Under the pieces are notes generated by a model. The model saw only the letters and a list, made by a program, of their open reading frames with translations, was not told the DNA's origin and did no database searches. From positions 1 through 64,000 of IMG/VR virus record IMGVR_UViG_3300042869_000676: a stretch of 64,000 nt of DNA, one strand, 5' to 3'. This DNA is from a virus. Every line of letters begins with the position of its first letter. Position 1 is the first letter of the stretch. Of this stretch, positions 3,416-15,093 are shown piece after piece. Made by a program: the position numbers and the translations under genes.

Positions 3416-3490
3416 GCTTCAGTAGCTCAGTGGTAGAGCACTCGCCTTGTAAGCGAGCGGTCATCGGTTCGACTCCGATTTGAAGCTCCA
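3416..3490 (+). tRNA. tRNA-Thr (anticodon TGT)
   Basis: Complete cloverleaf. The acceptor arms are GCTTCAG (3416-3422) and TTGAAGC (3480-3486). The anticodon stem CTCGC/GCGAG encloses the loop CTTGTAA with TGT at 3448-3450. The T-loop is TTCGACT, and the 3' CCA is encoded (3488-3490). It reads ACA (Thr), an A-ending codon. The gene for the next protein begins 7 nt after the CCA. Confidence 0.95.
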
Positions 3491-11472: not shown

Positions 11473-12015
11473 ATGAACCAAAAAAGTGTAAATATAGTGT
11501 TATTATCTTTATTGTTAAGTGGTTGCAGTTCTTTTATGAAGATGCCAGATGGTACTGTATCTAATAAAAATGCGCCGATATTCGTTAAGCCAAACACGAA
11601 CAGCCCGGCCGTAAATAAGCAGGAGGTTGAAGCGGCACCTTCTGTCCGGCGCCCGGCAGTGGTGAGCTTCAATGCCGAAAAGTACATTATGGTAAAGGAA
11701 AGTGATTTGAATAAGCTAGTAGAAGAGAAGACTAAAGAAGCTATTTTAAATTCATATAAAATAAAGCCAAACACGAATACTATTTCTGTTAATAATGAGA
11801 ACACGAATGGTAATGTTGTAAATAATGAGCCTACTGATATTGTTCCAGTTGGGAAAGTGCCAACCGTTGAGACCTTGGTGGTTAAACCACAGGAAACTTC
11901 GTCTATTGGCAGGTACTTGGCGACGGTAGTGGTGGTGCTAGGGTTCATCTTAGGAGTGGGCTGGCTGTTCTGGAAGAACAAACTCGCCGCAGCTAAAGAA
12001 AAGAAAACCGAGTAA
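11473..12015 (+). CDS. Candidate unimolecular spanin (lipoprotein with C-terminal membrane helix)
   Basis: 180 residues. The N-terminus is a lipoprotein signal (IVLLSLLLSGC, lipid-attachment Cys18). The middle is a long Asn/Thr/Pro/Val-rich periplasmic stretch with one predicted helix (KESDLNKLVEEKTKEAI). The C-terminus has one strong membrane helix (about 148-167, LATVVVVLGFILGVGWLFW) and a basic cytoplasmic tail. An outer-membrane lipid anchor plus an inner-membrane helix on one chain is the defining topology of unimolecular spanins (phage T1 gp11 type), which fuse outer and inner membranes in the last step of lysis. The leader AGAGGA 8-13 nt before the ATG is a good ribosome site. If right, the host has an outer membrane. 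Confidence 0.7.
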   Translation: MNQKSVNIVLLSLLLSGCSSFMKMPDGTVSNKNAPIFVKPNTNSPAVNKQEVEAAPSVRRPAVVSFNAEKYIMVKESDLNKLVEEKTKEAILNSYKIKPNTNTISVNNENTNGNVVNNEPTDIVPVGKVPTVETLVVKPQETSSIGRYLATVVVVLGFILGVGWLFWKNKLAAAKEKKTE

Positions 12016-12016
12016 A

Positions 12017-12128
12017 GTGGCGCATTCTTAGGGTTGTGGCGCATTGTTTCGGTTATGGCGCATTTTTCGTGGAACATCTTTGCGTTGTGGAACATTTTTG
12101 TGGAACATCTTTAGCTTCGTGGAACATT
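12017..12128 (+). repeat. Iteron-like array: three GGCGCATT and four GTGGAACAT repeats
   Basis: Direct repeats (G/A)TGGCGCATT at 12017, 12036 and 12055 (period 19) run into GTGGAACAT(C/T) at 12069, 12087, 12100 and 12119 (steps 18, 13, 19). GTGGAACA is exactly one arm of the palindrome at 16298-16313. The same four-copy array with identical steps recurs at 17990-18049. Lies between the spanin candidate and the promoter at 12160. Confidence 0.85.
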
Positions 12129-12159
12129 TGATTTTTTAATCTTTTTTTAAGAAAAGGTA

Positions 12160-12196
12160 TTGACCAGAGGTTAAAAATCATTTTTAATTCTGGGGT
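12160..12196 (+). promoter_or_regulatory. Sigma70-type promoter, leaderless layout
   Basis: TTGACC (12160-12165), 17-nt spacer, TTTAAT (12183-12188), ATG at 12197 eight bases later. The upstream sequence GAAAAGGTATTGAC is repeated at 13378-13391, before the structured RNA region. Confidence 0.55.
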
Positions 12197-12424
12197 ATGA
12201 ATGAAACACCAATTAAAAAAGGCAGAGGTCGCCCCGCTGGTGGCACCTCTTTTGTAAACGTGTCTATCGCTGACTTGAAACGGTTCGGAGAAATTCCTGT
12301 TCCTGTTTCTCGCGTGTGGCTTGAAAAAATGGGCTTGACGGTCGCAACAATCTCACCCATTGTTAGCGAAGTTAAACAAGAAATTGCTCCCGCTATTGAA
12401 TTCAAATTGACCCAACTAAACTAA
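12197..12424 (+). CDS. Small basic protein with AT-hook-like N-terminus
   Basis: 75 residues. The N-terminus KKGRGRPAGG resembles an AT-hook (R-G-R-P core) that would bind A/T minor groove. The rest (SIADLKRFGEIPVPVSRVWLEKMGL) is a short helical region found in small phage proteins of unknown function. It sits between the iteron-like array and the RuvB-like ATPase, whose ATG overlaps its stop, so the two are co-expressed. A DNA-binding partner of the ATPase is a reasonable guess. Probable leaderless start. Confidence 0.7.
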   Translation: MNETPIKKGRGRPAGGTSFVNVSIADLKRFGEIPVPVSRVWLEKMGLTVATISPIVSEVKQEIAPAIEFKLTQLN

Positions 12425-13362
12425 TGAAAGCTCGTTTCTCCAACCTAATCGGCCAAACTGATGTCAAGAAGAAGTTCGATTTCTATCTCGACTCTCAGAA
12501 TCAATCACAACGTTTTCCTTTTGTTTTGCTCACGGGCGCAAAGGGAATGGGCAAGACCGAGTTCGCCAAAGAAGCGGCTCGATCTATCGTTGGGAAAAGT
12601 GGCGAAGCTCGCCCATTTCTTGAGATCAACTGCGGCACAATCAAAAACGCGCAAATGTTCTTTGAGCAAGTGTTCGCACCTGTGATTCAAAACAATGAAG
12701 TTACTGTTCTGCTGGATGAGTGTCATGCTCTGCCCAAAGACTTAATGACTGTGCTTCTCTCTGCTTTTAACACTGAGAAAACTGAGCGCAAACAAATCTC
12801 TTGGAAGGACGGACTCTACGAGTTCAATTTCAAGATGCAGAGTTTCATGTTGGCAACGACTGAACAAGATCGTTTGTTTGGCCCATTGAAAGATCGTTTG
12901 CTGTCGATTGATTTTCAAGCCTACTCTGTGGCGGAAACTGCTGAGATTATCAAACGCGCATTCCCTGACATTAGTTTTGAAGGTGATGTGCTTAGTCTCG
13001 TTGCCAAAACTGTTCGTGGAAATGCTCGCTCTGCTATCCAACGCGCAAAACAGATTGAGATGTATTGCCAGACGAAACACAAGAAAACGTTTGACGTTGC
13101 TGACTGGACTTCACTCTGCGACAAGATCGGCATCAACTCATCTGGTCTTTCTAATTCTGAGATTCAAGTGTTGACAACTCTTAAACAGCGCGGCGACTGC
13201 TCGCTTTCAATGTTGAGCGCAGTCACAGGTATGTCTCGCTCTGCGCTTCAACGCGACGTGGAAATCTTCCTCTTGCAGCGCGGTTACATGAAGATCGAAG
13301 GTTCCAGAAAGATTACCGCAGAAGGTGTCAAGGCTTTGTCTGCTATCGAGGAGAAAAAATAA
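12424..13362 (+). CDS. RuvB-like AAA+ ATPase with C-terminal winged helix
   Basis: 312 residues. The AAA+ core has Walker A GAKGMGKT (38-45), Walker B VLLDEC (95-100), a sensor-1-type LATTE (143-147) and PLKDR with an arginine finger (Arg158). LATTEQDRLFGPLKDR matches the RuvB signature. The C-terminus (about 245-310, GLSNSEIQVLTTLKQRG...SRSALQRDVEIFLLQRGYMKI) is a RuvB-type winged helix for DNA. RuvB drives Holliday-junction branch migration; phage versions may serve recombination or act as clamp-loader-like or replication-associated ATPases, and the sequence does not decide between these. No RuvA or RuvC is in the window. It is directly followed by the structured-RNA candidate. Confidence 0.85.
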   Translation: MKARFSNLIGQTDVKKKFDFYLDSQNQSQRFPFVLLTGAKGMGKTEFAKEAARSIVGKSGEARPFLEINCGTIKNAQMFFEQVFAPVIQNNEVTVLLDECHALPKDLMTVLLSAFNTEKTERKQISWKDGLYEFNFKMQSFMLATTEQDRLFGPLKDRLLSIDFQAYSVAETAEIIKRAFPDISFEGDVLSLVAKTVRGNARSAIQRAKQIEMYCQTKHKKTFDVADWTSLCDKIGINSSGLSNSEIQVLTTLKQRGDCSLSMLSAVTGMSRSALQRDVEIFLLQRGYMKIEGSRKITAEGVKALSAIEEKK

Positions 13363-13386: not shown

Positions 13387-13420
13387 TTGACGAGTGCAGA
13401 AAAATCCTCACACTCATTTT
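13387..13420 (+). promoter_or_regulatory. Possible promoter of the structured RNA
   Basis: TTGACG (13387-13392), 18-nt spacer, CACTCA (13411-13416), close to the TACTCT -10 used at 6092. The upstream AAAAGGTATTGAC is the same as at 12153-12164. Confidence 0.4.
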
Positions 13421-13432
13421 CGTTGAGGTCAT

Positions 13433-13821
13433 CTGACTCCCGCCCCCCACGCCTGACAATACTAGGTGGGGCGGGAAATCAGGTTGTTCTTTCTAATTTT
13501 GGTTGAGAAAAAGAGTATCGAGCGCGGCGAAGAGCCAAGCGACGCCTAATCGACCAAAATTTTGTAACGCTAAAAATCCCAAGCAAGAGTGCTTCTATGT
13601 GAAAACGGTAAAAGTCCGTCACGGGAGGTAAAGCCACGAATAGAGGCTTACTCGTTACAATCTAATTTTTGTGGTGAAGCAAAGTATGGAGCAGCCCTTC
13701 CTAGTGCTGGGTATTAGCGGTTGAAAACTACCGCCGCCACATTAAAACTTTCCTCAATCCGCCGATCCACATTGGCTGGTGAGGAACCCTGGAAGTGGGT
13801 CGCGCATACTTTAATCACGCG
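13433..13821 (+). ncRNA. Candidate structured non-coding RNA, about 390-400 nt
   Basis: A gene-free stretch made of consecutive helices. (1) CTGA + CCCGCCCC (13433-13446) with GGGGCGGG + TCAG (13468-13482). (2) AATTTTGGTTGA (13495-13506) with TCGACCAAAATT (13550-13561), 12 bp with one G-U. (3) TGTAACG (13563-13569) with CGTTACA (13653-13659), enclosing hairpins AAGC/GCTT, ACGG/CCGT and GTAAaGCC/GGCTTAC. (4) TGTGGTG (13670-13676) with CGCCACA (13735-13741), enclosing CAGC/GCTG and GCGGT/ACCGC. (5) TTCCTCA (13750-13756) with TGAGGAA (13780-13786), enclosing GCCGAT/ATTGGC. (6) ACCC/GGGT. (7) CGCG/CGCG. No open frame fits it. I see no tmRNA, RNase P, 6S or group I intron signature. Ends are approximate. 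Confidence 0.7.
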
Positions 13822-13875
13822 AATAATTTTGCTAGCTAAACTAAACAATAACTGATTGCTTAACTAAATACTAAA

Positions 13876-14331
13876 ATGCCTAACTGGTGCCAAAACAACA
13901 TCGCCATCTCTGGTGATTTAAATAAATTTAAAACGTGGCTTAACGGTGAACCGTTCAGCCTGAATAAGATTGTGCCAATGGATCAAATCTTATTGGAAGA
14001 TGAAGGCTGGCATAATTGGCGCATCGAGAATTGGGGAACTAAATGGGACGTGGACGTAGAGGCTGAAATCACTTTCAGCGGAGACAGTGCGATACTTATC
14101 CACTTCAACAGTGCGTGGGGACCGCCTAACTTAGCTATCGCTAAGCTCTCAGAATCTTTTCCAGAGATTACAATTGAACACTCTTATCTTGAAGAAGGTA
14201 TGTGCTTTGTTGGCAAAGATGTCTATTCTAATGGCGCTCTTCGTAACGCAGTATGCTACGAAGACCCTAGCAAAGAAGAGTGGAAAGAACTTGCCACTGC
14301 TGAATTTAACTGGGAACCTTACGAGGAATAA
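13876..14331 (+). CDS. DUF1281-like (YubB/Api92-type) ferredoxin-fold protein
   Basis: 151 residues starting MPNWCQNNIAISG, the signature opening of the DUF1281/Api92-like ferredoxin-fold domain. The family also shows WRIENWGTKWDVD (here about residues 48-60), a beta strand with FNSAWGPP (about 77-84), and a C-terminal E/Y-rich tail. Found in plasmids, phages and integrative elements; function unknown. It follows the structured-RNA candidate by about 50 nt and is followed by a tiny gene 5 nt later. Confidence 0.8.
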   Translation: MPNWCQNNIAISGDLNKFKTWLNGEPFSLNKIVPMDQILLEDEGWHNWRIENWGTKWDVDVEAEITFSGDSAILIHFNSAWGPPNLAIAKLSESFPEITIEHSYLEEGMCFVGKDVYSNGALRNAVCYEDPSKEEWKELATAEFNWEPYEE

Positions 14332-14701: not shown

Positions 14702-14776
14702 GTCCTTATCGTATAACGGATAATACAAGGCTCTTCTAAAGCCTCAATGAAAGTTCGATTCTTTCTGGGGACACCA
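14702..14776 (+). tRNA. tRNA-Arg (anticodon TCT)
   Basis: Acceptor GTCCTTA (14702-14708) pairs with TGGGGAC (two T-G pairs). Anticodon stem AGGCT/AGCCT holds loop CTTCTAA with TCT at 14735-14737. T-arm GAAAG-TTCGATT-CTTTC. CCA is encoded at 14774-14776. Reads AGA. Confidence 0.93.
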
Positions 14777-14968: not shown

Positions 14969-14994
14969 TGCGTTAATAAGTAATAATAAAAACA

Positions 14995-15093
14995 GGGGTA
15001 GGTAGGGGTAGGTAGGGGTAGGTAGGGGTAGGTAGGGGTAGGTAGGGGTAGGTAGGGGTAGGTAGGGGTAGGTAGGGGTAGGTAGGGGTAGGT
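14995..15093 (+). repeat. Tandem repeat GGGGTAGGTA, about 10 copies
   Basis: A 10-bp unit repeated without interruption for 99 bases, all G on the plus strand. Capable of G-quadruplex formation. Followed by TTGAGA...TCTCAA (15097-15119), an inverted repeat that also follows the array at 17791-17954. Confidence 0.95.

Follow-up and report, generated by a model that had tools for sequence, protein, structure and literature searches.

The gene-free stretch at positions 13433-13821 of the DNA analysed here (the window, i.e., positions 1 to 64,000 of IMGVR_UViG_3300042869_000676, an IMG/VR virus record of 75.6 kb) is best explained, with a probability of about 0.55, as a locus in a phage, perhaps a freshwater one, for a modular noncoding RNA of approximately 400 nt that would include a tRNA mimic and would either have its own promoter or be cut from an mRNA as a long noncoding leader. 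The RNA would be assembled from blocks: a GC-rich hairpin at the 5' end, an insert that is optional (domains A, B, and C) and a 3' part whose last element is a conserved hairpin. Within the insert, domain C would be the tRNA mimic, in which a 5-bp T-arm extends a 7-bp acceptor-like stem, with D-like and anticodon-like arms besides. In addition to tRNAs, phages are known to encode ribozymes adjacent to tRNAs and large RNAs without known function, and a covarying, non-decoding tRNA mimic that is traded among phage lineages and set in modular noncoding RNAs would allow the reasons for keeping such RNAs to be tested, candidate reasons being processing punctuation and decoys against tRNA-cutting defences.

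Locus and Coding Content

An earlier note on this DNA had described the stretch as gene-free, and this was borne out: no open reading frame of at least 60 aa was found between 13363 and 13875, where the smaller ones reach at most 52 aa and have non-ATG starts. The neighbor that had been called RuvB-like encodes an AAA ATPase; its Pfam domains are RuvB-like, and the top PHROG match is a DNA-polymerase clamp loader. The downstream tRNA pair is also present, the first tRNA starting at 14702, 880 bases 3' of the stretch instead of the 850 given before. Relatives of the Api92-like downstream gene had no homologous RNA at their loci.

TABLE 1. Genes and predicted RNA elements at the locus (window coordinates).
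Feature	Position	Strand	Evidence
AAA/RuvB-like, clamp-loader-like ATPase gene	12424-13362	+	Pfam, PHROG
Putative promoter, TTGACG (13387-13392), 16-nt spacer, CACACT (13409-13414)	13387-13414	+	Sequence
p1, 5' GC-rich hairpin	13433-13482	+	Fold z -3.55
Domain A, 12-bp helix with one G-U	13495-13561	+	Fold z -2.87
Domain B, branched, closing pair UUGUAACG:CGUUACAA	13562-13660	+	Fold z -2.33
Domain C, tRNA-like cloverleaf without encoded CCA	13670-13741	+	Seven further records, covariation, cloverleaf scan
Hairpin UUUCCUC...GAGGAA, 3' of domain C	13749-13786	+	Kept in L002/L003; changes in loop region
3' hairpin GUGGG-UCGCG-CAUACUUUAAUCA-CGCGA	13795-13822	+	Recurs elsewhere, covariation
Downstream gene, DUF1281_C/Api92-like	13876-14331	+	Pfam; another gene in its place in L002/L003

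Putative Promoter and Fold of the Candidate RNA

The TTGACG box reported previously is present in the sequence and, together with the CACACT element, forms a putative phage-type promoter, from which transcription would be expected to start near 13421. The TTGAC box is conserved in two related viral records, L002 and L003, and another promoter of the phage group (TTGAAC-N16-CACACT in G042) has the same spacing and the same -10 element. No intrinsic terminator was found 3' of the window RNA.

Folding of the plus strand of 13433-13821 gave -128.7 kcal/mol against a mean of -109.1 for shuffled sequences (z -3.51; 0 of 100 shuffles as good), and the minus strand gave a z of -2.67. The strong helices noticed before, in nested and consecutive order, were all recovered, including the 12-bp helix of domain A, and the two hairpins 3' of domain C, when folded together, gave a z of -2.51. 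That both strands fold better than shuffles, with inverted repeats beside the clamp-loader-like gene, would also suit a DNA-level element, e.g., a replication origin beside a replication gene, a reading made very improbable by the presence of G-U pairs, by the recurrence of domain C at different sites in other genomes, and by the promoter and terminator that flank the G042 copy.

The start of domain A resembles the start of domain C (a 32-nt match; 0 of 2000 shuffles as good), and the covariance model of domain C did not recognise domain A. No homologue of domain A was found elsewhere, while a pattern scan for domain B returned three unrelated matches, each without the remainder of the domain, and hence no homologue; the structures of domains A and B are thus predictions from folding energy.

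Conservation in Near Relatives

L002 and L003 share the gene order of the window, with approximately 90% protein identity in the ATPase gene. Between the genes, both records retain the promoter box, the GC-rich hairpin and the 3' part but have no counterpart of the middle 255 nt (13494-13748). The retained pieces are 88-91% identical to the window, apart from the 5' part in L003 (82%), where 8 nt are inserted; in the adjacent gene, by comparison, third codon positions are 66-69% identical. In addition, the 49-nt p1 stem-loop is free of substitutions in L002 and carries two in L003, both in the loop; the probability of 49 unchanged positions at 69% neutral identity is approximately 1e-8. The identity well above that of third codon positions and the unchanged p1 indicate that the conserved pieces are under selection, though noncoding. 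The homologous RNAs of L002 and L003 fold with z of -3.2 and -2.6, respectively, and a scan with the 5' hairpin pattern matched in these two records only. The proposal of one large structured RNA is therefore sustained with regard to structure and not with regard to a single conserved unit, as the RNA is a chain of blocks of which the middle 255 nt are absent in both relatives.

A tRNA-Like Cloverleaf in Domain C

Domain C reads, from 13670, UGUGGUG (acceptor), AA, GC-AAAGUAUGGA-GC (D-like arm), A, GCCC-UUCCUAGUGCU-GGGU (anticodon-like arm), AUUA (variable loop), GCGGU-UGAAAACU-ACCGC (T-like arm) and CGCCACA (3' strand of the acceptor). The spacing is that of a cloverleaf, i.e., a 7-bp acceptor, a 2-nt linker, the D-arm, 1 nt, the anticodon arm, a variable loop of 4-5 nt, and a 5-bp T-arm abutting the acceptor. 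All junction lengths fit the tRNA layout in seven of eight copies of the domain (described below), the copy in L285 being one acceptor base short. The D-stem of the copies has just 2-3 bp, and the anticodon loop, in place of the 7 nt of a tRNA, has 11 nt in the window group, 4 nt in G027 and L284, and 5 nt in L285. The T-loop (UGAAARCU, 8 nt) is non-canonical and no CCA is encoded 3' of the domain. On account of the CCA, the anticodon loop and the T-loop, domain C is regarded as tRNA-like and not as a tRNA, and neither ARAGORN nor the Rfam tRNA model called it as one.

When the 64-kb window was scanned on both strands with a strict cloverleaf pattern, the only hits were domain C and a true tRNA at 3416. 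Applied to relatives (2.7 Mb of strand sequence), the scan returned true tRNAs, the copies of domain C and four unexplained others; its loop ranges had been set after domain C was seen, which somewhat weakens the test. Folded alone, domain C was slightly better than shuffled sequences (z -1.46 in the window, -0.30 in G042). Within the window RNA, the forced cloverleaf costs 6.4 kcal/mol, and the minimum-energy fold of the whole RNA prefers another pairing. The G027 copy follows this plan too, its D-stem having 3 bp and its anticodon stem 6 bp, and for it the cloverleaf and the minimum-energy fold coincide.

Distribution and Covariation of Domain C

Domain C recurs in seven other viral records (G042, G048 [L194], G027, L280, L286, L284, and L285), a small set that consists of fragments of uncultivated phages. 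The search covered 80 related loci, reached via the terminase, and 47 records were searched for the insert of the window. The copies in G042, L280, and L286 are identical to the window at 70-71 of 72 positions, the G042 copy having been detected as a 96% match to the last third of the insert. The location of the domain in G042 differs from that in the window, and the genes of these two phages are 67-75% identical (45-49% at third codon positions); near-identity of domain C despite such divergence indicates that it was recently exchanged or is extremely constrained. A covariance model (R1) built on three near-identical copies matched G027 (E 9.7e-7), whose copy keeps just 36 of 72 bases, L284 (4.1e-8) and L285 (8e-6). 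A pattern derived from the G027 comparison retrieved L280, L286, L284, and L285, all of which were confirmed by the model. The genomes G049, G051, and G052 (L280, L285, L286) had no match to the terminase of the window, and the motif therefore crosses phage lineages.

In the alignment of the eight copies (A6), 98.4% of cells pair and 9 of 18 pairs show changes on both sides; the covariation score was 0.627, as compared to 0.04-0.16 with slid partners, and all stems are maintained through changes on both sides. Most of the double changes separate two sequence groups of domain C and may represent one set of events on one branch, so that the independent events are fewer than these counts suggest. 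The covariation predicted for homologues was obtained for the 3' blocks and not for domains A and B, and the homologous blocks remain noncoding in the other records. A tRNA cluster near the domain, or directly beside it as in L285, together with the missing CCA and the lack of a proper anticodon loop, could suggest a decayed tRNA gene whose cloverleaf is a functionless remnant. This explanation is disfavoured and quite improbable, given that the stems are kept through changes on both sides and that domain C is 97-99% identical where third codon positions are 45-49% identical, while a remnant would drift.

The surroundings of the domain differ among the records. In L285, the start of the domain lies 3-4 nt past the CCA of a tRNA-Glu, which itself follows a tRNA-Thr. 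Theta ribozymes, the HDV-like phage RNA motifs at tRNA 3' ends, have this position (PMC10879173), and a self-cleaving ribozyme of that type might be expected there. The Rfam ribozyme models, however, gave no match, and the cloverleaf connectivity of domain C differs from HDV connectivity. In the HDV fold, a nested double pseudoknot with a catalytic C in J4/2, the P2 strand comes last and P1 closes inside, whereas the covarying outer stem of domain C joins the first and last strands and leaves no strand outside for the last HDV helix, making a theta-like ribozyme hardly credible. In G042 and its sister record G048, domain C lies within a 370-nt intergenic RNA gene with a fold z of -3.64. The promoter of this gene reads TTGCAC...TATTCT, five internal domains accompany the closing helix CCUAGU:ACUGGG, and the terminator (GGGGGCGGGGAGCGATCCCCTCCCCC-AACTTTTTTC) is strong. 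Just 5' of domain C in G042 (L186 6918-6990, minus strand) is an element GCGGGGG...CCCCCGCACCA with a 7-bp acceptor-like stem, an encoded CCA and a 5-nt T-loop; it was not called by ARAGORN and is possibly a second tRNA-like block.

Domain C was not found in bacterial genomes, BLAST searches of phages and plasmids with the window region and the homologous RNAs gave no real match, and no description of the motif was found in open-access papers. The domain C model and the sequence signature TAGCGNNTGAAANCTNNCGCC can be used for finding further copies.

The 3' Hairpin and a Possible Loop–Loop Contact

The 3' hairpin recurs in L002, L003, L286, L280, L285, and L284. Across six distinct sequences, all cells of its five pairs pair, and two of the five pairs show changes on both sides (U-A to G-C; C-G to G-C to U-A). 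Two matches to the hairpin pattern in bacterial genomes were rejected as chance, the helix not being kept. In L286, a promoter, a closed 5' domain, domain C, a hairpin, a further domain and the 3' hairpin follow one another in approximately 415 nt, the size of the window RNA. The shared blocks and size indicate that the window and L286/L280 RNAs are members of one modular class.

In both the window and L286, an 8-bp pairing without mismatch can form between the D-like loop of domain C (AAAGUAUG) and the 3' hairpin loop (CAUACUUU), and the minimum-energy fold of the whole window RNA adopts it. The pairing is broken in L280 (4 bp), and L285 and L284, with the two motifs apart, show no such match, for which reason the contact is put forward as a hypothesis. 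A tentative extension, to which a low probability is assigned, would be a new class of phage RNA with exchangeable blocks around a tRNA mimic, in which the kissing contact would shape a defined three-dimensional RNA that captures or diverts host tRNA-binding proteins during infection.

In the window, L002, L285, and L286, approximately 30-60 nt separate the 3' hairpin from a downstream start codon, as would be expected if the stretch were a cis-acting leader, i.e., a 5' untranslated region that regulates the following gene. Downstream genes differ among relatives, however, the one 3' of the RNA region in L002 and L003 being different from that of the window. Moreover, a strong terminator follows domain C in G042 and G048, and in L284 the 3' hairpin is not immediately 5' of a gene, so that control of the next gene is considered unlikely.

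Comparison with Known RNAs

The absence of tmRNA, RNase P, 6S, and group I intron signatures, proposed from reading the sequence, agrees with the searches: the Rfam search suggested at that time gave no match at the gathering score and none credible at E up to 10, and neither ARAGORN nor Rfam found a tmRNA. GOLLD and ROOL are large structured phage RNAs of unknown function, often near tRNA islands (PMC12286853). The suggested membership in these classes was not supported by any Rfam covariance-model match, and the window RNA is much shorter, at approximately 400 nt, than GOLLD, many members of which exceed 800 nt. The alternative offered with it, that the RNA is possibly new, is retained in the sense of a structured noncoding candidate outside Rfam.

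Nearest in kind are the T4 species 1 and 2 RNAs, small stable phage RNAs adjoining tRNA genes. They correspond to rnaC (139 nt) and rnaD (119 nt) in the T4 tRNA cluster (NC_000866 70908-71171); rnaD ends in CCA and rnaC contains a T-arm-like GGGTTCGAATCCC. The window RNA is longer and modular in comparison, and its own block recurs across phages; a full-sensitivity search with the domain C model gave no credible match in either T4 gene. To our knowledge, the species 1 and 2 RNAs have no known function. Non-decoding RNAs with the shape of a tRNA include the B. cereus tRNAOther and plant virus TLS (PMC3399842; PMC4810234). The likeness of domain C to these pseudo-tRNAs and viral TLS is one of shape, and domain C differs in sitting inside a multi-domain phage RNA.

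Possible Roles of the tRNA Mimic

With no encoded CCA and no usable anticodon loop, domain C cannot decode and should act by being mistaken for a tRNA. Host RNase P and RNase Z would engage the 12-bp acceptor/T stack, thereby setting the ends of a stable RNA and freeing it from the neighboring transcript. RNase P cleaves tRNA-like and acceptor/T-stem minimal substrates, phage RNAs included (PMC11143913). Processing by these two enzymes is ranked first because a stacked acceptor and T-arm suffices as an RNase P substrate, phage RNAs being among the substrates, and because domain C lies directly 3' of a tRNA in L285 and within or at the end of RNA genes elsewhere. The antisense C4 RNA and the phage M3 RNA, phage noncoding RNAs processed by RNase P (PMC11143913), set a precedent for tRNA-processing enzymes acting on such RNAs; for the window RNA, processing is a proposal. 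From sequence and comparison, we infer that the RNA is transcribed, takes a tRNA-like three-dimensional shape, is bound by these enzymes and benefits the phage.

The main alternative, although of low probability, is a decoy, an RNA that would mimic a tRNA and thereby tie up anticodon nucleases of the host or further defence proteins that target tRNAs. A cloverleaf unable to decode would serve this purpose, and a near-identical copy of domain C in phages without the terminase of the window is as expected of a traded accessory element. Anticodon nucleases usually bind at the anticodon arm, and in domain C the corresponding arm is not constant, its loop having 11, 4 or 5 nt and its stem being rewritten from one group to the other, so that no particular tRNA is imitated; nor was a defence partner identified.

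Other Elements in the Phage Group

Further recurrent elements were observed in these phages. A motif of approximately 35 nt, GAGACTGGGCAACYTGCGnnAGTGGTGGCCCAC, is found at or near the 3' side of the clamp-loader-like gene in L184, L185, L183, L180, L194, and L284, and the loci with this motif that were scanned had no Rfam match. Approximately 60-390 bases 3' of the same gene, L184 and L185 have a domain of approximately 115 nt, whose closing helix is CCCAGTCAAGTTA:TAACTTGACTGGG in one record and CCCAGTCAGGTTA:TAACCTGACTGGG in the other, and in which an inner CAGC:GCTG corresponds to CGGC:GCCG; these compensatory changes point to another unassigned structured RNA. The palindrome CCGGGCCNGGCCCGG, sometimes followed by TTGTAAAAAAA, recurs in intergenic regions of the group, 3' of the clamp-loader gene in L181, L182, L183, L184, and L185. 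Intergenic promoters of G011, G042, G030, G035, G044, and G017 show a AATAATCAAAATAAA stretch with TTGCAC/TTGTGT, and their -10 boxes include TATTCT, CATTCT, CATACT, and CACACT.

In the window itself, a tandem repeat of AGGTAGGGGT-type units is found at 14993-15092, 3' of the tRNA pair. The intergenic region at 12000-12130 has degenerate repeats (GTGGAACATTTT / GTGGCGCATT), of which the GTGGAACATTTT form is also present in L002 and L003. At 12157-12195, a second TATTGAC box is followed by a long near-perfect hairpin (CCAGAGGTTAAAAA...TTTTTAATTCTGG), located immediately 5' of the start codon of a 75-aa open reading frame.
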